Shown: positions 1,019 through 14,794 of the stretch, in pieces
Position numbering within the stretch: position 1 is the first letter of the stretch
Layout of the letters: each line of letters opens with the position of its first letter
Assembly (NCBI GenBank): GCA_021802945.1
Contig: JAJZRE010000020.1
Coordinates: 9,024 to 43,000, forward strand
DNA: 33,977 bases
DNA from: Pseudomonadota bacterium
GTDB taxonomy: Bacteria > Pseudomonadota > Gammaproteobacteria > Burkholderiales > Thiobacillaceae
Direction: 5' to 3'
Program-made: the position numbers and the translations under genes
The notes under the pieces: generated by a model
Told to the model about the DNA's origin: nothing
What the model saw: the letters and a program-made list of their open reading frames with translations, nothing else
Databases searched by the model: none

Positions 1019-1660
1019 ATGATGTTCGCCAACCGCAATCAGGCCGCCGACCGGCTGGCCGCCGCGCTCGACGCCTACAAGGGCAGGAATCCGCTGATCC
1101 TCGCGATTCCGCGCGGGGCGGTGCCGATGGGGCAGCGGCTGGCGCGGGCGCTGGAAGGCGAACTCGACGTGGTGCTGGTGCGCAAGCTGCGCGCGCCGTT
1201 CAATCCGGAATTCGCGCTCGGCTCGATCGACGAATCGGGCTGGAGCTACATCGCCGACCATGCCGAATCGGCCGGCGGCACGCCGACCTATCTCGCGCAG
1301 GAGAAGCAGGCGCAGCTCGACACCATCAAAAAGCGGCGCGCGCAATACACGCCGCTGCGGCCGCCGATCGACCCGGCGGGGCGCATCGTCATCGTGGTCG
1401 ACGACGGTCTGGCGACGGGTGCAACGATGATTTCCGCGCTGCATGCGCTGCGCGCGAAGCGGCCGGCGAAGCTGATCTGCGCGGTGCCGGTGGCGCCGGC
1501 CGACACGCTGGAAAAGATCCGCGCCTACGCGGACGAGGTGGTGTGCCTGGATACGCCGATGTTCTTCCAGGCGGTGGGGCAGTTCTACGCCGACTTTCCG
1601 CAGGTCGACGATGCGGAAGTGATCGACATCCTCAGGGAGGCGGCTCAGCCCCGGGGCTGA
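1019..1660 (+). CDS. Phosphoribosyltransferase family protein
   Basis: The 213-residue product belongs to the PRTase superfamily. The PRPP-binding loop is visible as VVDDGLATGAT, with the acidic pair at residues 128-129. An N-terminal AIPRGAVPMG segment and the RKLRAPFNPEFALG segment are typical of the PRTase type related to mycobacterial Rv0571c. The substrate base is not known for this family. The reading frame is open from 962, but ATG at 1019 (or the next codon, 1022) is preferred because AGGAGA lies just upstream. In several bacteria this domain is fused to a dienelactone-hydrolase-like domain. Here such a hydrolase is the convergent neighbour, and the two genes overlap by 29 bases at their 3' ends. 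Confidence 0.85.
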   Translation: MMFANRNQAADRLAAALDAYKGRNPLILAIPRGAVPMGQRLARALEGELDVVLVRKLRAPFNPEFALGSIDESGWSYIADHAESAGGTPTYLAQEKQAQLDTIKKRRAQYTPLRPPIDPAGRIVIVVDDGLATGATMISALHALRAKRPAKLICAVPVAPADTLEKIRAYADEVVCLDTPMFFQAVGQFYADFPQVDDAEVIDILREAAQPRG

Positions 1661-2300
1661 ACCGCGGCAGATGCTCCGCGAACCACCCCGCCGCCCGCAT
1701 CGCCACCGCCTCCAGCGTGCCGGGTTCCTCGAACAGGTGGGTGGCGCCGGGCACGACCACCATCTCCTTCTCGCAGCGCAGCTGGTCGTAGGCCAGCTGG
1801 TTGAGATCGATCACGCCGTCGTCGTAGCCACCCACCAATAAAAGGGTTGGCGCCCTCACCTTCTGCAGCGCCAGTTTGCTGGCAAGGTCTGGACGACCGC
1901 CGCGCGACACCACGGCACGGGCCTGGCCGCCCAGCGCCGCGGCGGCCTCGAGCGCGGCGGCGGCGCCGGTGCTGGCACCGAAGAAGCCGAGCGGCAGGTC
2001 TTTCGTGACTTCCTGTACGCCGACCCAGCGCGCCGCCTCCAGCAGGCGCTGCGTCAACAGCCCGATATCGAAGCGGCGGGAGTAATCGCGGTCTTCTTCC
2101 GCGGTCAGCAGGTCCATCAGCAGCGTGCCGATCCCGGCCGCGCGCAGTTCGCCGGCGACGTAGTTGTTGCGCGGAGAATGGCGCGACGAGCCGCTGCCGT
2201 GGGCGAACAGCACGAGGCCGACGGCGCCGTCGGGAATCTCCAGCATGCCTTCGGCCGTGACGCCGCCGGCCGGGATGTGGACCAGGGTGGAGGTGCTCAT
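1632..2300 (-). CDS. Alpha/beta hydrolase, dienelactone hydrolase-like
   Basis: The 222-residue product has the alpha/beta hydrolase fold signature. The nucleophile elbow is GASTG with Ser110, an acid is visible in GGYDDG (Asp160/161), and His188 lies in GATHLF. An oxyanion-type segment, FAHGSGSSRHS, lies near residue 32. Substrate unknown. The longer open frame (to 2669) runs into the upstream gene; ATG at 2300 is chosen because it overlaps the TGA of the radical SAM gene in an ATGA arrangement, which indicates translational coupling. It is therefore the third gene of the AmmeMemoRadiSam operon. Its 3' end overlaps the convergent phosphoribosyltransferase gene. Confidence 0.85.
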   Translation of the reverse strand: MSTSTLVHIPAGGVTAEGMLEIPDGAVGLVLFAHGSGSSRHSPRNNYVAGELRAAGIGTLLMDLLTAEEDRDYSRRFDIGLLTQRLLEAARWVGVQEVTKDLPLGFFGASTGAAAALEAAAALGGQARAVVSRGGRPDLASKLALQKVRAPTLLLVGGYDDGVIDLNQLAYDQLRCEKEMVVVPGATHLFEEPGTLEAVAMRAAGWFAEHLPRFSPGAEPPP

Positions 2301-3391
2301 GCGCGATCCTCCCGGTGCATGGCGATCGGAATGCGGCGGTTGCCGAAGGGATGGCTGAAGGCGCCGAAGCGGCCGGCGATGGCCGTGCCGCAGTGCGGGC
2401 AGTGGCCGTCGGGCGTCACGCTGTAGTGGTCGATGCGGTACCAGTCGCGCACGATCAGCGCTTCGTGGCAGTTCGGGCATGACGTCGTGCCGCCTGCCGG
2501 ATCGTGCACGTTGCCGGTGTAGACGTAGTGCAGACCGGCCTTCAGCGCGATGTCGCGCGCCCGCGTCAGCGTCGACGCCGGCGTCGGCGGCACGTCGAGC
2601 ATCTTCCAGTCGGGGTGGAAGGCGGAGAAGTGCAGCGGCACGTCGGGGCCGAGTTCCTTGGATATCCATGCGCTCATCGCCGCGAGATCGGCGTCGGAGT
2701 CGTTGTGCCCCGGGATCAGCAGTGTGGTGATCTCGAACCAGACGTCGGTCTCGCGCTTGAGGTAGGTCAGCGTGTCGAGCACCGGCTGCAGATGGCCGCC
2801 GGTCAGCTTGACGTAGAAATCGTCGGTGAAGCCCTTCAGGTCGACGTTGGCGGCGTCCATCTTGGCGTAGAACGCGCGCCGGGGCTCATCGGTCATGTAG
2901 CCGGCCGTGACCGCCACCGTCTTGAGGCCGCGCGCGTGGCAGGCGTCGGCCACGTCCATCGCGTATTCGGCGAAGATCACCGGGTCGTTGTAGGTGAAGG
3001 CCACGCTCCTGCAGCCGGCCCGTTCGGCGGCCTCGGCGATCTCGTCCGGCATCGCCCGGTCGACCATGGTGTCGGTCTCGCGCGACTTGGAGATGTCCCA
3101 GTTCTGGCAGAACTTGCACGCGAGGTTGCAGCCGGCGGTTCCGAAGGAGAACACCGAGCTTCCCGGATAAAAATGATTCAGCGGCTTCTTCTCGATGGGG
3201 TCGACGCAGAAGCCGGACGAGCGGCCGTAGGTGGTAAGCACCATCCTGCCGCCTTCCATCTTGCGCACGAAGCACAGGCCGCGCTGGCCCTCGTGCAGCT
3301 TGCAGTAGCGCGGGCACAGGTCGCACTGGATGCGGCCGTCGGGCAGCGCATGCCACCAGCGCGCCGGGTGGTGCGATTCAGGAATGCTCAT
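2297..3391 (-). CDS. amrS: AmmeMemoRadiSam system radical SAM enzyme
   Basis: The 364-residue product carries the radical SAM cluster motif CNLACKFC with Cys88, Cys92 and Cys95, which would bind a [4Fe-4S] cluster and S-adenosylmethionine. A cysteine-rich N terminus (Cys23, Cys26, Cys30, Cys40) and the stretch IEKKPLNHFYPG match the AmmeMemoRadiSam radical SAM family, related to pyruvate formate-lyase activating enzymes. Two CPxC pairs near the C terminus (CPNCHEA and CPHCGTA) look like an added zinc-ribbon tail. The gene starts inside the 3' end of the MEMO-AMMECR1 fusion gene (14-base overlap) and its stop overlaps the hydrolase start. The reaction is unknown for the family. Confidence 0.93.
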   Translation of the reverse strand: MSIPESHHPARWWHALPDGRIQCDLCPRYCKLHEGQRGLCFVRKMEGGRMVLTTYGRSSGFCVDPIEKKPLNHFYPGSSVFSFGTAGCNLACKFCQNWDISKSRETDTMVDRAMPDEIAEAAERAGCRSVAFTYNDPVIFAEYAMDVADACHARGLKTVAVTAGYMTDEPRRAFYAKMDAANVDLKGFTDDFYVKLTGGHLQPVLDTLTYLKRETDVWFEITTLLIPGHNDSDADLAAMSAWISKELGPDVPLHFSAFHPDWKMLDVPPTPASTLTRARDIALKAGLHYVYTGNVHDPAGGTTSCPNCHEALIVRDWYRIDHYSVTPDGHCPHCGTAIAGRFGAFSHPFGNRRIPIAMHREDRA

Positions 3392-4751
3392 GTGCCGTTT
3401 CCTTTTCCTTCCATTTGCTCACCGTATAGCGCGACAGGCGCACCTGTTCGGCCCAGAAATCCGCCGGCAGGCCGGCCTTGCGCTTCAGGTGGGCGAGGAA
3501 CGCGGCCGGCTCGGGCAGCTGCTCCCACACCTGCGGCAGGAAGGTGCTGCGGTAATGGCCGTACTCGAACACCACGCCGTCGACGCCCGGTCGCAGCGCC
3601 GCCAGGGCCGCAGACTCGTCCCTCGCCTCCAGCGGTTCGGCCGGGGAAAGCAGGGACACCTCGACCCGGACCGCCGCGAATTCCGCGCGACTCAGCGGCA
3701 TGAAGCGCGGGTCGCGAAACGCCGCTGCCACCGCGTTTTCGCGCACGTCGATTCCCAGCGGGCGATGCGCCTCCAGGGTGCCGATGCAGCCGCGCAACTC
3801 GCCCTGTCGGGTCAGGGTGACGAAGCTCGCACCCGGTTCCTGCAACCAGCCTGCCTGCGCCGGGGCCGTCACCGCCTGCCCCAGCCTGGAGGCGATTTCG
3901 GAGCGTGCCAGCTTCAGCAGGGTTTCGCCCTTTTCCGTGTCCGGCCGGTCGGGGCCGGCCTCATCCGTGAAAGCGAAGGCGGCATAGCCGACCACCCGCT
4001 CGGGATCGCCGGCGGTATCGCTCGAATTGCGCACATCCAGCACCAGCGGATGCAGGCCGTGCCTGCGCGCTGCCAGCAGCAGGCCGTTGACCGGCGTGGC
4101 GCCGCAGGCCTGCTCGTGGCTCAAATGCGAATCCAGCGCCAGGATGGCGTCCACGGTGCCGCCGTCCACCTTGCGGGCGACTGCGTCGGGCAGGAAGTGC
4201 GACAGGTCCGAGCTGATCACGACCAGCGTCTCGTCGCCGCCCCACACCTGCTCCAGCACCTCGGCCACCTCGGCGGCGGTGGCGTCGCCCACCGCCAGCG
4301 GCAGCAGCAGGAAATCGCCCAGCACCTGCTGCAGGAAGGGCAGCTGCACTTCCAGCGAATGCTCCATCCGGTGCGCCGCCGCGCTGCGCACCACCTGCGG
4401 CAGCGCGGCAACGGCCCGCATGCCCTCGCGATCCAGCGGCACCTCGCCCAGCGGGGTGGCGAAACGGTCTGCCTCGGGCAGCGCCAGCCCGCGCACATAG
4501 ACACGATGGGTAGGCCCAAGCAGCACCACCCGGCGAACGCGGCCGCGCAGCGTGGCCACTTGCGCATAGGCGCTGGCGGCCACCGGACCCGAGTAGATAT
4601 AGCCCGCATGCGGCACGATCACCGCCTTGGGGGGACGCGACGGCGCGGCCGCCCCGGCCTTCGCCAGCAGGCCGGCCACGGTGCGCTTGAGTTCGACGGG
4701 GTCGTCCGGATAGAACATTCCGGCAACGGCGGCGGGTCGGATGGCAGACAT
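3378..4751 (-). CDS. MEMO-AMMECR1 fusion protein (AmmeMemoRadiSam proteins B and A)
   Basis: The 457-residue product joins two domains. Residues 1 to about 265 are a MEMO domain, related to extradiol dioxygenases, with VPHAGYIYSG (His48), LLGPTH and EHSLEVQLPFLQ. Residues from about 285 form an AMMECR1 domain with the diagnostic LRGCIGT motif near residue 317 and a downstream segment FRDPRF. ATG at 4751 is preferred over the ATG at 4766 because GAGGG lies eight bases upstream of it. It is the first gene of a three-gene overlapping operon with the radical SAM enzyme and an alpha/beta hydrolase. The three domain names give the AmmeMemoRadiSam system its name; a biochemical role is not established. 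Confidence 0.92.
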   Translation of the reverse strand: MSAIRPAAVAGMFYPDDPVELKRTVAGLLAKAGAAAPSRPPKAVIVPHAGYIYSGPVAASAYAQVATLRGRVRRVVLLGPTHRVYVRGLALPEADRFATPLGEVPLDREGMRAVAALPQVVRSAAAHRMEHSLEVQLPFLQQVLGDFLLLPLAVGDATAAEVAEVLEQVWGGDETLVVISSDLSHFLPDAVARKVDGGTVDAILALDSHLSHEQACGATPVNGLLLAARRHGLHPLVLDVRNSSDTAGDPERVVGYAAFAFTDEAGPDRPDTEKGETLLKLARSEIASRLGQAVTAPAQAGWLQEPGASFVTLTRQGELRGCIGTLEAHRPLGIDVRENAVAAAFRDPRFMPLSRAEFAAVRVEVSLLSPAEPLEARDESAALAALRPGVDGVVFEYGHYRSTFLPQVWEQLPEPAAFLAHLKRKAGLPADFWAEQVRLSRYTVSKWKEKETAHEHS

Positions 4752-4884: not shown

Positions 4885-6396
4885 ATGATCAAGAAGAACA
4901 AGGCTTCGTTACATGGCGCCGGCGAAGGCGCGCTCCTGTTGTCGATTTTGCAGGAATCCATCACCGAGGTTCTGATCTTTGACGCAGACACGCTGCATAT
5001 CGTCCAGGCCAACCCGGCCGCGGCACGCAACCTGCAGTATCGGCTCAAGGCCCTGCAGAGACTGACGCCGCAGGATTTGATGGCGCCCCAGGACGGGCGC
5101 GCGTTCAACACCCTGCTGGGCCTGCTGAGAAGCGGCAAAAAGCGCCGAACGGCCCTCAATGTGCACTTCCAGCGCCGCGACGGCACCCGCTATCCGGTCG
5201 AAACCCGGCTGCTCTACTCGGGCGAGCACGACAAGCCGGTGTTCATCTGCATTGCCAATGACGTCAGCCAGCGTGAGGCCACGCGGCAGGCGCTGGCGCA
5301 TTCCGAATCGGATCTGCGCGCCATCGTGGCGCATATCCCCGGCATGGCCTTCCAGATCATGCGCCAGCATGACGCCCCCCCCGTTCTGCGCTATGCCAGC
5401 GAGCAATCCGCCCAGCTGCTCGACATCAAGGCGGCCGCCCTCTGCGCCAGACCGGAGCGCTTCTTCAAGCTGGTCCTGGAAGAGGACAAGCCCGACTATC
5501 TGGCCAAGCTGGCCCAGGCCGGCGGCGGCCACCTGAGTTTCAACTGGGAAGGTCGCATCTGGATGAAGGCATGGAAGGACTTGAAATGGGTGTCGATACG
5601 CGTCAGCCAGCGCAAGGTGGGCGGCAACCTGATCTGGGACGGCATCATGCTGAACGTCACGCAAAGCAAGCTGGCCGAAGACGAGAGCCGCCGTTCGCGG
5701 GCCCAGTTGAGCGCATTGGCCTCGCACGTCGAAAAGGTCAAGGAGCAGGAGCGGCTCAATCTGGCCAGGGAGGTGCACGACGACCTCGGCGGCAACCTCA
5801 CGGCCATCAAGATCGTTCTGTCCTGGCTGAAACAAAACCTGCCGCCCGACGCCACCCGGCTGATCCAGCGCACGGACTATCTTGACCAGGTGGTCGACCA
5901 CACATTCGAGGCAGCCCACCGCATTGCGTCCAACCTGCGGCCCGCCGAACTCGATCTGGGCATCGTACCGGCCATCAAGTGCCAGTTGCAGCGTTTTTCC
6001 CGCAATACCGATATTGCCTACCGGTTCAGCGCAACCGACGAGCCCGTCCCGCTCGATCCCGACGCCGCGATCGCCGTATTCCGCATCGTCCAGGAGGCGC
6101 TGACCAACGTCTCCAAGCATGCCCGCGCCAGCCGGGTCAGGCTCAGGCTTGAGCGGAAGCAGGACAGCCTGCTGGTCAGCCTGACCGACAATGGCATAGG
6201 CATTCCGCCCGTGCGCAATGGCACAGGCGGGACCGGCTTCGGCCTGCTCGGCATGTGCGAGCGCGCGGTCGCGCTGGGCGGCGAATTCAAGGTGCAGCCC
6301 GCCAGGCGCCAGGGCACCCGGGTCAGCCTGCGAATTCCCCTGTCCGCCGCCGCGCCCGGCGCAGCGGAATCACGGCATAATGGATCAAACCCGTGA
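4885..6396 (+). CDS. Soluble PAS-PAS sensor histidine kinase, NarL/DegS type
   Basis: The 503-residue product has two PAS-like domains (about residues 15-125 and 138-265), a HisKA_3 dimerisation domain with LAREVHDDLGG (phospho-acceptor His298), and a HATPase domain with FRIVQEALTNVSKHA (N box) and DNGIGIP (residues 435-441). No transmembrane segment is visible, so sensing is probably cytoplasmic. The start is uncertain: the frame is open upstream, GTG at 4828 is an alternative, and the best Shine-Dalgarno (GGAGGGG at 4857-4863) is too far from ATG 4885. The gene is divergent from the AmmeMemoRadiSam operon and overlaps the following response regulator, its obvious partner. The signal is unknown. 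Confidence 0.88.
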   Translation: MIKKNKASLHGAGEGALLLSILQESITEVLIFDADTLHIVQANPAAARNLQYRLKALQRLTPQDLMAPQDGRAFNTLLGLLRSGKKRRTALNVHFQRRDGTRYPVETRLLYSGEHDKPVFICIANDVSQREATRQALAHSESDLRAIVAHIPGMAFQIMRQHDAPPVLRYASEQSAQLLDIKAAALCARPERFFKLVLEEDKPDYLAKLAQAGGGHLSFNWEGRIWMKAWKDLKWVSIRVSQRKVGGNLIWDGIMLNVTQSKLAEDESRRSRAQLSALASHVEKVKEQERLNLAREVHDDLGGNLTAIKIVLSWLKQNLPPDATRLIQRTDYLDQVVDHTFEAAHRIASNLRPAELDLGIVPAIKCQLQRFSRNTDIAYRFSATDEPVPLDPDAAIAVFRIVQEALTNVSKHARASRVRLRLERKQDSLLVSLTDNGIGIPPVRNGTGGTGFGLLGMCERAVALGGEFKVQPARRQGTRVSLRIPLSAAAPGAAESRHNGSNP

Positions 6397-7057
6397 GCAG
6401 AGAATTTCCGTGGCCGTAGCAAAACCCTATCGCATCCTCATCGTCGACGACCATGCCATCGTGCGCGAAGGACTCAAGCAGATCCTGGCCGAGGTCGAAG
6501 ACATCGAAGTCGCGGGCGAGGCCGACTGTTCCAGCTGTGCCCTGCAGATGGCCCGCCGCGAACCCTGGGATCTGGTCCTGATGGACATCACCATGCCCGA
6601 CCGCAGCGGCCTGGAAACCCTGGAACTGATGAAAAAGGAGCATCCCGGCATCAAGGTGCTGATGCTCTCCATGCACCGCGAGACGCAGTACGCGGTGCGC
6701 GCGCTGAAATCCGGCGCCGCCGGCTATCTGAACAAGCAGAGCGCACCGGCGCAACTGGTCGAGGCCATCCGTCTGGTGGCCTCCGGCAAGAAGTACATCA
6801 GCCCCGAGGTCGCCCAGGAACTCGCCAGCCAGGTGAGCGGCGAACGCACGAACCTGCCGCATGAGGACCTGTCCAATCGCGAATACCAGACCCTGTGCAT
6901 GATCGCCTCGGGCCTGACCGTCACGGCCATCGCCGACAAGCTCGCCTTGTCCGCCAAGACCATCAGCATGTACCGCTCGCGCCTGCTGAAGAAGATGCAA
7001 CTGAAGAACAACGCCGAACTGACGCATTACGCGATCAGGCACGGGCTCCTGGACTGA
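6380..7057 (+). CDS. NarL/LuxR-family response regulator
   Basis: The 225-residue product has an N-terminal receiver domain with VDDH (residues 22-25), phospho-acceptor Asp69 in LMDITMPD and Lys at the conserved GYLNK position. A C-terminal LuxR-type helix-turn-helix follows (LSNREYQTLCMIASG through LSAKTISMYRSRLL). It overlaps the kinase gene by 17 bases and is its likely phosphotransfer partner. ATG 6380 was chosen; GTG 6410, which would trim the first ten residues, is also possible because both Shine-Dalgarno regions are weak. Target promoters cannot be read from the sequence. Confidence 0.9.
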   Translation: MDQTREQRISVAVAKPYRILIVDDHAIVREGLKQILAEVEDIEVAGEADCSSCALQMARREPWDLVLMDITMPDRSGLETLELMKKEHPGIKVLMLSMHRETQYAVRALKSGAAGYLNKQSAPAQLVEAIRLVASGKKYISPEVAQELASQVSGERTNLPHEDLSNREYQTLCMIASGLTVTAIADKLALSAKTISMYRSRLLKKMQLKNNAELTHYAIRHGLLD

Positions 7058-8932: not shown

Positions 8933-10447
8933 ATGGCAGCAGTAATCAATACCAACATCGCTTCGCTGAATACCCAGCGCAACCTGAATGCTTCGCAGTC
9001 CGCTCTGAATACCTCGATCCAGCGGCTGTCTTCCGGTCTGCGTGTCAACAGCGCCAAAGACGACGCCGCCGGCCTGGCGATCGGCGAGCGCATGACCTCG
9101 CAAATCCGCGGCCTCAACCAGGCCGTGCGCAACGCCAACGACGGCATTTCGCTGTCGCAGACCGCTGAAGGCGCGCTCGGCACCGTCACCGACAACCTGC
9201 AGCGTATCCGCGAGCTGGCCGTGCAGGCTGCCAACGCCACCAACAGCGCTTCGGATCGCGCCGCGCTGAACCAGGAAGTTCAGCAACGTCTCGCGGAAAT
9301 CGATCGCGTCGGCAGCCAGACCGCATTCAACGGCCAGAAAGTGCTTGACGGCACCTTCGGCACCGCTACCTTCCAGGTCGGCGCAAACGCCAACGAAACG
9401 ATCGACGTTAACCTGAGCGTCGGTACGCGTACCAATCAGATCGGACAAATTGCGACGGGTACTTCCACTGCCGAGGTAACCACCACCGCCCTTTCCGGCG
9501 CGGGCACCATCCAGGTGGGTTCCAATGCGGCCAAGACCATTGGCGCTTCTCTCCAAGGCTCGTCCGCCGGCCAGTCTGTCGGCAGCGCCTACGCGAAGGC
9601 ACAGGCCATCAACGCTGCCAGCGTGCCGGGGTTGACCGCGACGGCGACGAACAACATCGAACTAACCGCTGCTGCGGTGACTGCTGGTGGTGCTGGTGCC
9701 ACTTACAGTCTCAAGATCAACGGCACGGATATTTTCGCCGGCTACGACTCGTCCGCAACCGGACTGACCACGCAGCAGATTACCGACGCGATCAACGCCC
9801 AAAGTGCAAACACCGGGGTAACCGCTTCCTTGACCGGTACCGACCTGCGTCTGAGCGCCGCAGACGGCCGCGACATCAACATCGGCCAAACGCTTAACCT
9901 ATCGACCGGTGGTATCAGCGCAGGCGCTGGTGGCTCGTCGACCGTCAACGGCGTGACTTATCGTGACGGCACGGTGGGTACCGCCGCCAATGCGACCGCC
10001 TACAGCACGGATGCGACCGCAGTCAACGGTGGAACGCTGACCTTGTCGGCCACGGAAAATATCGTTATCACCGGCGGCGGTACCGATATGGGCTTCGCCT
10101 CGGCGAATACCACGATCGCCCGGGACACGACGACCCTTTCCTCGGTCAACGTCTCAACCGTGGCCGCTGCGAACGACACCCTGAAGCGTGTTGATGCCGC
10201 ACTGACATCGATCAGCACCCTGCGCAGCACCTTCGGCGCGATTCAGAACCGCTTTGAATCCACCATCGCCAACCTGCAAGGCACGGCTGAAAGCCTCTCC
10301 GCAGCGCGCAGCCGCATCCTGGATGCCGACTTCGCAGCCGAGACCGCTTCGCTGACGCGCGGCCAGATCCTGCAGCAGGCCGGTACCGCGATGCTGGCGC
10401 AGGCCAACTCGCTGCCGAACAACGTGCTCTCGCTGCTGCGCGGTTAA
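8933..10447 (+). CDS. fliC: Flagellin (filament subunit)
   Basis: The 504-residue product has the conserved flagellin N terminus (AAVINTNIASLNTQRNLN; then RLSSGLRVNSAKDDAAGLAI) and the C-terminal helical domain ending in PNNVLSLLRG, which together form the D0/D1 core. The central 300 residues are the surface-exposed part and are rich in Thr, Ala, Gly and Asn. They include a Flagellin_IN-like segment around YSLKINGTDIF. LQRIRELAVQ at residues 89-98 matches the TLR5-recognised segment of Salmonella-type flagellins. AAGGAG lies six bases before ATG. A sigma-28-type promoter lies upstream and paired hairpins follow, consistent with a highly expressed, mainly monocistronic mRNA. Confidence 0.97.
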   Translation: MAAVINTNIASLNTQRNLNASQSALNTSIQRLSSGLRVNSAKDDAAGLAIGERMTSQIRGLNQAVRNANDGISLSQTAEGALGTVTDNLQRIRELAVQAANATNSASDRAALNQEVQQRLAEIDRVGSQTAFNGQKVLDGTFGTATFQVGANANETIDVNLSVGTRTNQIGQIATGTSTAEVTTTALSGAGTIQVGSNAAKTIGASLQGSSAGQSVGSAYAKAQAINAASVPGLTATATNNIELTAAAVTAGGAGATYSLKINGTDIFAGYDSSATGLTTQQITDAINAQSANTGVTASLTGTDLRLSAADGRDINIGQTLNLSTGGISAGAGGSSTVNGVTYRDGTVGTAANATAYSTDATAVNGGTLTLSATENIVITGGGTDMGFASANTTIARDTTTLSSVNVSTVAAANDTLKRVDAALTSISTLRSTFGAIQNRFESTIANLQGTAESLSAARSRILDADFAAETASLTRGQILQQAGTAMLAQANSLPNNVLSLLRG

Positions 10448-10454
10448 GTTAAAA

Positions 10455-10472
10455 CAGGCGCTCAGGCGCCTG
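10455..10472 (+). terminator. First hairpin after fliC
   Basis: CAGGCG at 10455-10460 and CGCCTG at 10467-10472 form a 6-bp stem with a six-base loop, starting eight bases after the fliC stop. No T-run follows directly. It may protect the fliC mRNA 3' end or act with the next hairpin. Confidence 0.5.
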
Positions 10473-10515
10473 GGCAAAGCGGCGGAGCAAGGGGATTCCC
10501 TGCTCCGCCTTTGCC
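10473..10515 (+). terminator. Second, larger hairpin between fliC and flaG
   Basis: GGCGGAGCA at 10481-10489 pairs perfectly with TGCTCCGCC at 10501-10509. The stem extends outward through GGCAAA (10473-10478) with TTTGCC (10510-10515) after a two-base bulge, and inward through GGG with CCC. The fold is very stable but lacks a T-tract, so it may give partial termination, allowing lower expression of flaG and fliD than of fliC. Confidence 0.6.
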
Positions 10516-10538
10516 GCAACCAGATCAGGGGAAACATC

Positions 10539-10901
10539 ATGTCCATTGGAAAAGTCGATTCAGTTGACCTTGCCGCCACGAGGCAAGCCCCCGCACCCGC
10601 ACCCACACCCACACCGGTTACGCCTGCGCAGCGCGCCACACAGGACAATCCCGTTTTTCCGCCCGCGCAGCCCGTCACCCGGGAAGCGGTCGCCGCCGCC
10701 GTGCAGTCCGCCAATGCGTATGTGCAATCCATATCAACCAGCATCCAGTTTTCGCTCGATCACGACACCGGACGCACCGTCGTCAAGATGATCGACACGC
10801 AAACCGACGAAGTGCTGCGACAGTTTCCCAGCGAGGAAATGCTGGCGATTTCCCGGTCCATCGACCGCATGCAGGGGTTGATCGTCAATCGGAAAGCTTG
10901 A
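10539..10901 (+). CDS. flaG: FlaG family protein
   Basis: The 120-residue product shows the FlaG-family C-terminal half: an amphipathic segment (IQFSLDHDTGRTVVKMID) followed by EVLRQFPSEEMLAISR. The N-terminal half is a low-complexity Pro/Ala/Thr linker with APAPTPTPVTP. FlaG proteins affect filament length in several polar-flagellated bacteria. The gene sits in the usual place between the flagellin gene and fliD, with AGGGG upstream of its ATG and ten bases before fliD. Confidence 0.9.
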   Translation: MSIGKVDSVDLAATRQAPAPAPTPTPVTPAQRATQDNPVFPPAQPVTREAVAAAVQSANAYVQSISTSIQFSLDHDTGRTVVKMIDTQTDEVLRQFPSEEMLAISRSIDRMQGLIVNRKA

Positions 10902-10911
10902 GGAGACAGCC

Positions 10912-12912
10912 ATGATTAACGCTCCCGGAATCGGATCAGGACTCGATGTCAACGGCATCGTCAGCCAGTTGATGGCTGCCGAACGCCAGCCGCTCGTGGC
11001 CCTGACCAAACAGGAGACGGTCTACACCCAGAAACTGTCCGCCTTCGGTCAGGTGCGCGGCGCGCTCGCCAGCTTCCAGAGCGCCCTGCAGGATCTCGGC
11101 AGCGGCAGCAAGTTCCAGGCGTTCAGCGCCATTGCATCCGATGCCACCGTGCTCAGTGCCAGCGCCAGCGGCACAGCCATCCCCGGCAGCTACCAGATCG
11201 AAGTGAGCCAACTGGCGCAGCAGCAGAAGCTGGCCTCCAGCGGATACGCCACCACCGACACAGTCGTCGGCTCAGGCACGCTGACGATCCAGTTCGGCAC
11301 CTTTGACAGCGGGCTGAACAGTTTTACCGCCAACGCCGACAAGGCAACGAAAAGCATTGCCATCGACCCGGCCAACAACACGCTTGCCGGGGTACGCGAT
11401 GCGATCAACGCCGCCAATGCCGGCGTCACCGCGACGATCGTCAACGACGGCAGTTCCGCCGGCAATCGGCTGGTGCTTACCTCAACTGACAGCGGCGCCG
11501 CCAACAGCCTCAAGATCACTGCCGCCGATGCCGACGGCAACAACCTGGATGGCAGCGGCCTGTCCGCGCTGGCCTACGACCCGACGGCTGCCGCCGGCAG
11601 CGGAAAGAACCTCGGCCAGGTTGCCGCGGCGCAGGATGCCCTGCTGAAGATTGATGGTATCGCGGTCAAGCAGTCCACCAACACGGTAAAAAACGCCATC
11701 GACGGCGTCACCCTGAATCTCGCGCAGACCAATGTCGGCAAGGCGCTGACGCTGACGGTGAGCCGCGACACCAAAACCATCACGGATGCCGTGCAGGCGT
11801 TCGTCAACGCCTATAACACTGCCAACGGAACCATCAAGAAGCTTACTGCCTTCAATGGGCCAGGCGCGCAGAACGGCATCCTGCTGGGTGACGGCACCGC
11901 GCGCGCGATTCAGGTTCAGATGCGCAATGTGCTGAATACGTCGATCGACAGCGGCGGCACGCTCACCACCCTGTCGCAGATCGGCGTCAGCTTCACCAGC
12001 GACGGCACGCTGTCGCTCGACAGCGCCAAGCTCAATACCGCCATCAGCACGAATTTTGACGACATTGCGGCGCTGTTCGCCAAGGCCGGCAAAACGACCG
12101 ACAGCCTGGTCAGCTACAGTGCCAGCACCACCAAGACCCAGCCCGGCAGCTATGCGGTCAACGTCACCCAACTGGCGACACGCGGCTCCACCCGGGGCAG
12201 CCAGGCGGCCTCGCTGACCGTGACGGCAGGCGTCAACGACCAGCTCGATCTGACGATCGACGGTACGGCCGTCAGCGTCACGCTAGCGGCAGCCACCTAT
12301 GCCAGCGCCGATGCCCTCGCCGCCGAAATCCAGAGCAAGGTCAATGGCGCGACGGGGACCTCCGGCAGCGTTCTGGTAAGCCAAAGCGGTGGCGTGCTCA
12401 GCATCGCTTCGACACGCTACGGCAGCGCCTCGCAGGCTGTGGTAACCGGCGGCAACGGCATGGCCAGTCTGCTCGGTGCCTCCCCTACCACCACCACCGG
12501 CGTCGATGTCGTCGGCACGATCAACGGTGCCACTGCCAGTGGCAACGGCCAGACGCTTACGGGAGCAACTGGCAATGCCAGCGAGGGCCTGGCGCTGCTT
12601 ATTGCCGGCGGTGCCCTCGGCACGCGCGGCAACGTCACCTTCAGCCAGGGTTATGCCTTTCAGCTCAGCCAGTACCTCGACACCGTGCTGGCCGACGACG
12701 GCAGTCTGAAGGCGCGCACCAACGGCATCGACAGCAGCATCAAGAATCTGGACCAGCGCCAGGCCCAGCTCGAGGCACGGCTGGCACAGATCGAGAAACG
12801 CTATCGCGCGCAGTTCACCGCGTTGGACTCCATGCTCAGCAGCATGAACAGCACCAGCACTTTTCTGACCCAGCAGCTGGCCAGCCTGCCCGGCAGCAGT
12901 CAAGGCAAATAA
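10912..12912 (+). CDS. fliD: Flagellar filament cap protein FliD
   Basis: The 666-residue product starts with the FliD signature (INAPGIGSGLDVNGIVSQLM). It has an N-terminal domain (about 10-105), a middle region, and a C-terminal region with the coiled-coil end DQRQAQLEARLAQIEKRYRAQ and FTALDSMLSSM typical of the cap. It is exported and forms the pentameric/hexameric cap under which flagellin folds. At 666 residues it is longer than the 450-480 usual in enterics. The extra length includes a second segment starting at Pro411 (PGSYAVNVTQLA) that resembles the first one at Pro91 (PGSYQIEVSQLA), so a domain looks duplicated. GAGGAG precedes the ATG. Confidence 0.95.
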   Translation: MINAPGIGSGLDVNGIVSQLMAAERQPLVALTKQETVYTQKLSAFGQVRGALASFQSALQDLGSGSKFQAFSAIASDATVLSASASGTAIPGSYQIEVSQLAQQQKLASSGYATTDTVVGSGTLTIQFGTFDSGLNSFTANADKATKSIAIDPANNTLAGVRDAINAANAGVTATIVNDGSSAGNRLVLTSTDSGAANSLKITAADADGNNLDGSGLSALAYDPTAAAGSGKNLGQVAAAQDALLKIDGIAVKQSTNTVKNAIDGVTLNLAQTNVGKALTLTVSRDTKTITDAVQAFVNAYNTANGTIKKLTAFNGPGAQNGILLGDGTARAIQVQMRNVLNTSIDSGGTLTTLSQIGVSFTSDGTLSLDSAKLNTAISTNFDDIAALFAKAGKTTDSLVSYSASTTKTQPGSYAVNVTQLATRGSTRGSQAASLTVTAGVNDQLDLTIDGTAVSVTLAAATYASADALAAEIQSKVNGATGTSGSVLVSQSGGVLSIASTRYGSASQAVVTGGNGMASLLGASPTTTTGVDVVGTINGATASGNGQTLTGATGNASEGLALLIAGGALGTRGNVTFSQGYAFQLSQYLDTVLADDGSLKARTNGIDSSIKNLDQRQAQLEARLAQIEKRYRAQFTALDSMLSSMNSTSTFLTQQLASLPGSSQGK

Positions 12913-12927
12913 AACCCGGAGGATGCC

Positions 12928-13362
12928 GTGTACACGACTCATAGAAATGCCGCGCATGCCTACGCCAACGTCGGTCTGGAAACCGGCGTGGCGGCGGCCA
13001 GTCCGCACCAGCTCATCCTGATGCTCTACGACGGTGCCGAACTCGCGGTGCGGATGGCGATCAGGCACATGAACGAAGGCGATCTGACGAAGAAATCCGC
13101 TGCCATTTCCAAGGCCAGCAACATCATCCTCGAAGGCCTCCGTGCTGCGCTCGATCTGCGCCAGGGCGGCGATATCGCCCGGCAGCTGGACGATCTGTAC
13201 AACTACATGAACAAGCGCCTGATGCTCGCCCACGTCAACAACCAGACCGCGCCGCTGGAAGAAGTGCTGGGCCTGCTGCGCGAGCTGCATGACGCGTGGC
13301 AGCAGATCGGTGCCGCCGACCGCGCCGCGCCCCAATCATCCAATCATCCTATTGCCGCCTGA
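12928..13362 (+). CDS. fliS: Flagellin chaperone FliS
   Basis: The 144-residue, mainly helical product has the FliS hallmarks: a Tyr-rich N terminus with AYANVGLETGV, then SPHQLILMLYDGA, and the NYMNKRL segment. FliS binds the flagellin C terminus in the cytoplasm and prevents premature polymerisation before export. Translation starts at GTG 12928; GGAGG lies five bases upstream, and no ATG in frame is better placed. It follows fliD by 15 bases and precedes fliT. Confidence 0.95.
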   Translation: MYTTHRNAAHAYANVGLETGVAAASPHQLILMLYDGAELAVRMAIRHMNEGDLTKKSAAISKASNIILEGLRAALDLRQGGDIARQLDDLYNYMNKRLMLAHVNNQTAPLEEVLGLLRELHDAWQQIGAADRAAPQSSNHPIAA

Positions 13363-13375
13363 TCCGGAGACATTC

Positions 13376-13705
13376 ATGACCAGCAACGAAATGCTCGCCG
13401 CCTATGAAATGCTCTCCGAACTGACGGGCACCATGCTGGACGCCGCCCGCCAGGGCGAATGGGATCACCTGGCCGCGCTGGAACGACGCTGCCAGGGCCA
13501 CGTCGGCGACCTGATGAAGGCCACGCCGGTGCCGCTGAACGAGACCGAGCAGCGCTCCCGGGTAGCGATCATCCGCGCCATCCTGAAAAACGACGCCCAG
13601 ATCCGCGCGCTGACCGAGCCGCGCCTGCACGAGCTGCAGCAGCGCCTCAGCATGAATCGCACCGGCCAGCGCGGTGTCGAGGCCTACGGAGCCCAGCGGG
13701 CGTAA
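13376..13705 (+). CDS. fliT: Flagellar protein FliT-like chaperone
   Basis: The 109-residue all-helical product has a FliT-like pattern (MLDAARQGEWDHLAALERRC near the N terminus and NDAQIRALTEPRLHELQQ later), matching the size of FliT proteins. FliT binds the FliD C terminus as an export chaperone. Position directly after fliS supports the call more than sequence conservation, which is weak in this family. The ATG at 13376 is preceded by GGAGA; it lies 13 bases after fliS. Confidence 0.85.
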   Translation: MTSNEMLAAYEMLSELTGTMLDAARQGEWDHLAALERRCQGHVGDLMKATPVPLNETEQRSRVAIIRAILKNDAQIRALTEPRLHELQQRLSMNRTGQRGVEAYGAQRA

Positions 13706-13717
13706 TGCCCGTTCCCC

Positions 13718-14794
13718 ATGTTCCCGGTTCAGTATCTGGCCCGCATTCTGGAGATCCCGCCCACGCTGGACACGCCAGGGCGGCCGGTGTCCGGGCTGGT
13801 TCCGGTACAGCCGGTACAGAATGCCACCGAACGCGACCAGGCCGCGCCGCGGGCGGCGTTCGAGCACCTGGCCATCGGGCAGACGCTGACCGGCCTGGTG
13901 AAGCGTCTGGCCAAGGGGGTTTCGCTGGTCGAAATGGAAGGCCAGACGGTCGCGATGCGCCTGCCCCATCCGGCAGCGGCCGGCGACACCCTGAAGCTGC
14001 GTTTTGCCGGCCACATGCCGCAACCGGTGTTTCTGATCGAGGCGCCCGAGACCGCCGCCCGCGAGGGTCCGGAGTTGAGCCAGACCGCGCGCATGCTGAG
14101 CGACCTCATGCAGCGCGTGCCCGAACGCATTCTGCCCACCCTCACCCCGCCCGGCCCCCTGCTCGACCAGCCCGCCACGCAGCCCGCCGAACTGGCATTC
14201 GCGCTGCGCAACGCACTGGTCCGCAGCGGCCTGTTCTACGAATCGCACCTGGCCAGCTGGGTGGCCGGACAGGACAGCCTGGACGGCCTGATGCAGGAGC
14301 CGCAGAACCGGCTTGGCGCGGCCGAAGCCCCGCGCGCCGCCGCAGCCAGCCCCGCCAGCGCGCTGGCCCTGCCCGACGCTGGCGCAACCAGCGATCAGAA
14401 GCCGGCCAATCCCATGCATGTCCTGCTGACGCAGCAATTGCAGGTGCTGGAGTCGCCGCAATTCGTCTGGCGCGGCGAAGTATGGCCGGGGCAGCCGCTG
14501 GAGTGGCAGCTGCGCCGGGACGCCGACGCGACGCAGGACCGCCCGGCTTCGGCGACCGCCAGCGAGGGCGAGGCAGGCTGGGAATCGCGCCTCAAGCTGA
14601 CCCTGCCGAAACTGGGCACGGTGACCGTGCACATCAAGCTCGATGCGCGGCAGGCGTTCAGCATCCGCATGGTGCCGGAACAGCCGGGCACCGAACCCCT
14701 GCTGCGGCAAAACCGGCGGCAACTGGCCGAGCAGCTGGCCGCGGCGGGCTGCACGCTCCAGTCCCTGACGGTGCAACGCGATGGCCTCGCCTGA
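13718..14794 (+). CDS. FliK-like flagellar hook-length control C-terminal domain protein
   Basis: The 358-residue product ends in a domain resembling Flg_hook (FliK C-terminal): LKLTLPKLGTVTVHIKLD, then FSIRMVPEQPGTEPLLRQN, then LAEQLAAAGCTLQSLTVQ (about residues 285-355). The N-terminal two thirds are variable and proline/alanine-rich, as in FliK proteins. A separate, canonical fliK is present at 22587-23762, so this is a second FliK-like gene. It overlaps by 14 bases the next gene, which encodes a stand-alone FlhB C-terminal domain. FlhB is the partner of FliK in substrate switching, so the two probably act together. No other function can be read. Confidence 0.75.
   Translation: MFPVQYLARILEIPPTLDTPGRPVSGLVPVQPVQNATERDQAAPRAAFEHLAIGQTLTGLVKRLAKGVSLVEMEGQTVAMRLPHPAAAGDTLKLRFAGHMPQPVFLIEAPETAAREGPELSQTARMLSDLMQRVPERILPTLTPPGPLLDQPATQPAELAFALRNALVRSGLFYESHLASWVAGQDSLDGLMQEPQNRLGAAEAPRAAAASPASALALPDAGATSDQKPANPMHVLLTQQLQVLESPQFVWRGEVWPGQPLEWQLRRDADATQDRPASATASEGEAGWESRLKLTLPKLGTVTVHIKLDARQAFSIRMVPEQPGTEPLLRQNRRQLAEQLAAAGCTLQSLTVQRDGLA

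Follow-up and report, generated by a model that had tools for sequence, protein, structure and literature searches.

Hydrolase catalysis goes with a phosphoribosyltransferase, and the hydrolase's place in the AmmeMemoRadiSam operon outlives catalysis

We analyzed a stretch of 33,977 nucleotides from a member of the Thiobacillaceae (order Burkholderiales; contig JAJZRE010000020.1; herein the window) that carries an AmmeMemoRadiSam operon, in which genes for a MEMO-AMMECR1 fusion and a radical SAM enzyme are followed by the gene for an alpha/beta hydrolase, with a convergent phosphoribosyltransferase (PRTase) gene beyond it. Comparison with related genomes reveals that hydrolase catalysis goes with the PRTase and that the position of the hydrolase gene in the AmmeMemoRadiSam operon outlives catalysis. 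Every genome in which an intact hydrolase was found has the PRTase as well, and in the window's order the intact hydrolase is often encoded immediately after the radical SAM enzyme. The reading that we prefer, with a probability of about 0.4, is that the locus is an AmmeMemoRadiSam operon with a docked PRTase-hydrolase module, the hydrolase having a second allegiance to the AmmeMemoRadiSam set.

The samples comprised 200 genomes of the window's order, 274 genomes of its class (the window's own genome included) and 121 genomes of the G382 family, recognized in the hydrolase tree because its copies group with those of named Accumulibacter, Propionivibrio and Cognatazoarcus; in every sample, adjacency may be hidden by contig ends. 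Presence of the radical SAM enzyme means a match over the TIGR04337 cut-off, and the hydrolase was judged intact or dead (catalytic residues lost) from its alignment columns. Counts from named loci and from numbered genomes are not summed because the two sets partly overlap (some of the radical SAM proteins are 100% identical).

The PRTase was present in all 33 class genomes with a hydrolase and in 37 of the 40 such order genomes (in one of the 37, G371, the hydrolase match is a 40-residue fragment only); in the three exceptions, G283, G302 and G382, the hydrolase is without its catalytic residues. All 60 numbered genomes with a hydrolase classed as intact also carry the PRTase. The PRTase occurs without the hydrolase in 29 of 62 class and 27 of 64 order genomes; the dependence is therefore one-way, of hydrolase on PRTase. 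The proposal of a first-pass annotation that PRTase and hydrolase belong together is thus well supported by co-occurrence, and a Rhizobium plasmid, from one of four plasmid regions viewed, encodes the two in a PRTase-hydrolase-erythromycin-esterase fusion. A Sphingobium plasmid region has PRTase, hydrolase and erythromycin esterase as neighbors, near a phosphoribosyl pyrophosphate (PRPP) synthetase; the gene tables of the Azoarcus and Haladaptatus plasmid regions, which are incomplete, show no PRTase in the part viewed.

The new observation comes from the G382 family, in which a radical SAM enzyme is present in 89 of the 121 genomes and a hydrolase profile match in 64: a dead hydrolase-fold protein lies directly behind the radical SAM enzyme in 43 of the 89. 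Aligned intact hydrolases keep HGSGS, GxSxG, the Asp and the His of ATHLFEE with few exceptions; among the 43 linked dead copies, the nucleophile Ser column is lost in 43 and the His column in 42. The 64 hydrolase genomes divide into overlapping categories: linked dead in 43, linked intact in 3, unlinked intact in 8, and unlinked dead without a linked dead copy in 14. The PRTase follows the intact state, being found in 11 of 11 genomes with an intact copy, 8 of 53 with dead copies only and 5 of 57 with no hydrolase. Of four genomes with a linked and a second copy, three (G419, G473 and G520) combine a dead linked copy with an intact second one. All 50 loci whose linked hydrolase was classed as dead or cut off retain the cluster motif of the radical SAM enzyme, and in the same survey the MEMO and AMMECR1 motifs are retained in 17 to 24 of 24 loci. 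The dead proteins also have conserved residues in common: E69, R85, G135 and D138 of the window protein (alignment columns 61, 77, 127 and 130) are kept in 97, 100, 100 and 95% of 62 dead rows. No dead copies were found elsewhere in the class (22 hydrolase matches in 175 genomes), while in the order sample the dead profile was applied to fetched stretches and not genome-wide; 21 matches of the class pass a strict three-motif check, and the 22nd has HLFS instead of HLFE.

Close pairs of dead copies show purifying selection. For 13 non-overlapping pairs of more than 150 codons, with synonymous divergence (dS) of 0.1 to 1.2 and more than 55% identity, the ratio of nonsynonymous to synonymous divergence (dN/dS) ranges from 0.07 to 0.84 with a median of 0.235, and 11 of the 13 lie below 0.4; 31 intact pairs chosen alike have a median of 0.29. 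Among the dead pairs, L231/L256 are two copies of one genome and L254/L260 are unlinked. Sequencing errors or fresh pseudogenes are an unlikely source of the dead copies, given their open frames in many genera and these low ratios. An origin in an unrelated family is ruled out by a profile match to 2o2g (4.6e-35, positions 1 through 204 of 206) together with a fold match: the AlphaFold2 model of the dead L072 protein, built from a five-row alignment, has a predicted local distance difference test (pLDDT) score of 87, and its best Protein Data Bank match is 2o2g with a template modeling (TM) score of 0.88. Five dead proteins gave no Pfam family at E 0.01. In a tree of 151 rows, well supported branches separate the dead forms of the G382 family from the intact group; the dead rows L128, L151, L157 and L286, some of them long-branched, fall on the intact side, and the dead state needs 5 changes. 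The tree therefore suggests a single major loss and a small number of further, separate losses.

Within the window's order, the radical SAM enzyme was found in 84 genomes, the hydrolase in 40 and the PRTase in 64. The 84 genomes yielded 86 radical SAM loci (two stretches of a single frame were joined to give one of these). The hydrolase is directly downstream (14 to 226 bp between match ends) in 25 of the 86, always on the same strand and in 11 families; the PRTase is linked (downstream within 7 kb) in 24, always on the opposite strand. Both genes lie near the radical SAM gene in 18 loci, the hydrolase only in 7, the PRTase only in 6 and neither in 55. A profile search of the fetched stretches found no intact or dead hydrolase and no PRTase in 54 of these 55 (7 with less than 2 kb downstream); G432, at a contig end, was left out. 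Two of the 25 linked hydrolases, those of G382 and G419, are dead. A linked hydrolase domain at least 150 residues long is present in 30 of 80 named loci; 24 of these domains are intact, 5 are dead and one (L037) is cut by a contig end. Orientation, spacing and breadth rule out chance adjacency of hydrolase or PRTase to the radical SAM gene in the order. In L032, from a Thiobacillus relative, genes for an ABC transporter ATPase, an FtsX permease and an HlyD protein are inserted between the hydrolase and the convergent PRTase (9851–14214), and the orientation of the PRTase is unchanged.

Outside the order the arrangement fades. In the class sample the hydrolase occurs in 33 genomes and the PRTase in 62; the radical SAM enzyme is over its cut-off in 21 of the 33 hydrolase genomes, against 141 of the 274 overall. 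The hydrolase lies beside the radical SAM gene in only 2 of the 33, the window and G082. The latter (locus L163, from another order) is rearranged, with the radical SAM gene divergent and MEMO, AMMECR1, PRTase and hydrolase following on one strand; in G196 the PRTase is approximately 6 kb from the radical SAM gene, without a hydrolase. Compared by eye across three match tables, co-occurrence and adjacency of all four genes did not hold beyond the window's order, and a universal four-gene system is ruled out. The link that the first-pass annotation drew between the AmmeMemoRadiSam set and the hydrolase and PRTase thus extends to 11 families of the order and to the rearranged G082/L163; it breaks down at class scale, where 2 of the 21 radical SAM-bearing hydrolase genomes have the two genes adjacent, an outcome that the annotation had itself named as refuting. 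The neighborhood of AmmeMemoRadiSam, hydrolase and PRTase is real but lineage-bound.

Coordinates of the window locus are collected in Table 1; those given at first pass, and the lengths of the overlaps, were all reproduced from the open reading frames (ORFs) and the sequence. Profile and structure-library matches likewise bear out the four proteins that had been named. The radical SAM protein scores 644.7 bits against TIGR04337 (cut-off 220); within one protein, the MEMO part scores 268.7 bits against TIGR04336 (cut-off 26) and the AMMECR1 part 199.2 bits against TIGR04335 (cut-off 99). The PRTase scores 84.2 bits against PF00156 (cut-off 26.3), and its nearest solved structure is 1wd5 (2.9e-42); by eye, its stretch VIVVDDGLATGATM resembles the PRPP-binding loop. 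The hydrolase has only sub-threshold Pfam matches (PF20408 and PF12146) and matches 2o2g at 3.4e-63 over residues 7 through 211 of 222. Its catalytic motifs are all present (HGSGSS, GASTG, GGYDD and ATHLFEEP, giving Ser-Asp-His and the oxyanion motif); homology and catalytic residues make it a predicted member of the 2o2g-type dienelactone hydrolase family. Among named genomes, the radical SAM protein has its four closest relatives in Thiobacillus (92, 88, 88 and 89% identity). Of 149 loci in which both domains are well covered, 37 have MEMO-AMMECR1 as a single ORF; these 37 are scattered, so fusion or fission has probably been repeated. The divergent PAS-HisKA_3 kinase is a neighbor of the operon and a possible regulator. 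Upstream of MEMO, an IspD-like gene, whose cluster occurs in 16 of 81 loci, is divergent near the operon (L047, L048, L082, L102, L104 and others), sometimes together with IspF- and Mfd-like genes, identities that were read from sequence.

Table 1. Genes and gene overlaps at the window locus
Feature	Position	Strand	Remarks
PRTase, 1wd5/TT1426 type (PF00156)	1019–1660	+	ATG 1019, stop 1658–1660; convergent with hydrolase
Alpha/beta hydrolase, 2o2g (dienelactone hydrolase) type	1632–2300	-	Start 2300, stop 1632–1634
Hydrolase/PRTase tail-to-tail overlap	1632–1660		29 bases
AmmeMemoRadiSam radical SAM enzyme (TIGR04337)	2297–3391	-	CNLACKFCQ cluster motif
Radical SAM/hydrolase ATGA overlap	2297–2300		4 bases
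MEMO-AMMECR1 fusion (TIGR04336 + TIGR04335; PF01875 + PF01871)	3378–4751	-	
MEMO-AMMECR1/radical SAM overlap	3378–3391		14 bases
PAS-HisKA_3 sensor kinase	4885–6396	+	Divergent from operon; start guessed, longest ORF from 4741
NarL/LuxR-type response regulator	6377–7057	+	Probable partner of PAS-HisKA_3 kinase

All readings of the chemistry are drawn from sequence, context and models. In the window's order, a PRTase-hydrolase module would have docked onto the operon of MEMO-AMMECR1 and the radical SAM enzyme. PRTase and hydrolase may share one small molecule: the PRTase would transfer or remove a phosphoribosyl group, and the hydrolase would hydrolyze an ester or lactone. The hydrolase fold may in addition bind one of the AmmeMemoRadiSam proteins or a product of the set. 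A second allegiance of this kind would account for a gene that stays behind the radical SAM gene after Ser and His are lost, usually without the PRTase, as in the G382 family. The window has an intact hydrolase and a PRTase, and both allegiances are therefore probably in use there. That the link to AmmeMemoRadiSam survives the loss of catalysis speaks for a role in binding or regulation and against an obligatory hydrolysis step. Since the linked hydrolase of the G382 family is mostly dead (43 dead, 3 intact) and the PRTase mostly absent, the function of AmmeMemoRadiSam does not require hydrolysis plus the PRTase. It would go further to see in the dead hydrolase of the G382 family a permanent part of AmmeMemoRadiSam, serving as a non-catalytic subunit or as a ligand-binding protein and descended from an enzyme that is partnered by the PRTase elsewhere, as in the window; the substrate or product of the system would in that case be recognized by the hydrolase fold and probably be able to carry phosphoribose. 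We regard this extension as doubtful.

Several observations weigh against the preferred reading. In the order, 55 of the 86 radical SAM loci lack both genes nearby, and outside it the hydrolase is hardly ever close to the radical SAM gene. Of the 53 dead-only genomes of the G382 family, 8 still carry the PRTase, and in G337, the fourth two-copy genome, both copies are intact. Nine dead-copy genomes (G526, G483, G542, G524, G518, G525, G564, G510 and G578) are without a Memo match and without a radical SAM match over the cut-off; L254/L260, from one genus, are among these nine and have a dN/dS of 0.07, a strong constraint, so the AmmeMemoRadiSam set is not needed for the dead protein to have a role. 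In G559 (52% complete; locus L246, 1420–3611), the dead hydrolase follows MEMO-AMMECR1, and no radical SAM gene intervenes. One close dead pair has a dN/dS of 0.84, and more distant dead pairs range from 0.23 to 1.13; constraint has therefore probably been relaxed in some of the lineage. Root-to-tip distance shows no difference between linked and unlinked dead copies, and faster evolution of the unlinked ones is not significant (p = 0.69). Finally, the dead state and PRTase absence provide 2 to 5 independent contrasts on the tree, for which a sign test of low power gives p = 1.

The main rival explanation is a stress or low-oxygen regulon, that is, shared regulation instead of chemistry: a portable PRTase-hydrolase module of a low-oxygen or dormancy stress set would be needed under the same condition as AmmeMemoRadiSam, possibly under the control of the neighboring kinase and NarL-type regulator, the pair that adjoins the window operon. 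We consider it a tentative alternative. RtcB lies near PRTase or hydrolase loci of other orders (L160, L163, L165, L167 and L171) and ribonucleotide reductase near those of L163 and L169 (the L163 stretches concerned are 538–1968 and 1–519), calls that were made with Pfam on L163 only and by similarity to L163 for the others. The review PMC5309233 groups genes of the same three kinds together in mycobacterial dormancy: Rv0570 (B12-dependent ribonucleotide reductase), Rv0571c (PRTase) and Rv2631 (RtcB). Plasmid copies, too, sit beside universal stress, Hsp20 and CBS genes, or beside PRPP synthetase and erythromycin esterase. However, genes that overlap by 4 bases or are separated by short gaps suggest a tie closer than co-regulation, the position of the hydrolase outlasts the loss of both catalysis and PRTase, and of 81 mapped loci only 4, those of the window and of Thiobacillus L032 through L034, have the kinase cluster.

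A single pathway of all four proteins, for the synthesis or repair of a ribosylated or nucleotide-like compound, strikes us as improbable. The radical SAM enzyme and MEMO (extradiol-dioxygenase fold) would modify a base-like molecule, the hydrolase would open a lactone or ester and the PRTase would add or remove the phosphoribosyl group; the 18 order loci with both genes and the single-strand run MEMO-AMMECR1-PRTase-hydrolase of L163 would fit, but many radical SAM genomes have neither hydrolase nor PRTase, and the G382 family combines dead hydrolases with missing PRTase. Human MEMO1 (PMC11081632) points both ways: its iron binding is much like that of extradiol dioxygenases, but its authors observed no dioxygenase activity on the substrates they tried. 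Hitchhiking would mean that the hydrolase gene reached its place behind the radical SAM gene in some ancestor and has remained there passively, with the dead copies in slow decay; it would agree with the single adjacency outside the window's order in the class sample and with the high dN/dS of some dead pairs (0.84 and 0.44 among close pairs, up to 1.1 among distant ones). It is improbable in view of retention in 11 families with fixed orientation, the constraint on 11 of the 13 close dead pairs and the residues that dead copies share.

MEMO and AMMECR1 span archaea to humans, and the role of the AmmeMemoRadiSam set is still sought. A fourth gene across the order, with intact and dead versions at one operon position, offers a new test of that role. 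As the PRTase tends to come and go with hydrolase catalysis, it provides a handle on whether the product is phosphoribosylated; further handles are the ligand bound by the hydrolase fold and contact of the hydrolase with MEMO or the radical SAM enzyme.

A literature search listed nothing recognizable on the AmmeMemoRadiSam-hydrolase-PRTase neighborhood. Burroughs et al. 2019 (J Biol Chem) reportedly described Memo clade contexts with AMMECR1 and radical SAM and tied them to base and isoprenoid modification; the likeness here lies in the genes read as ispD and ispF near the operon. That Memo work is among those cited in the text of PMC7159879. Compared with AmmeMemoRadiSam as defined by TIGR04335, TIGR04336 and TIGR04337, the window has all three components far over cut-off and an intact cluster motif, but its A and B proteins are fused in one gene, and a hydrolase and a convergent PRTase are added. 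The 2o2g-type dienelactone hydrolase, known from an Anabaena variabilis structure, is matched over the residues given above with its catalytic motifs kept; the window homolog differs in sitting in a radical SAM operon, where its G382 family counterpart is mostly dead. Rv0571c is a PRTase-hydrolase fusion. Pairs of this type, like the Rhizobium plasmid fusion, join the same two families, and hydrolase genomes here also have the PRTase; in the window, however, PRTase and hydrolase are separate, convergent, unfused genes.

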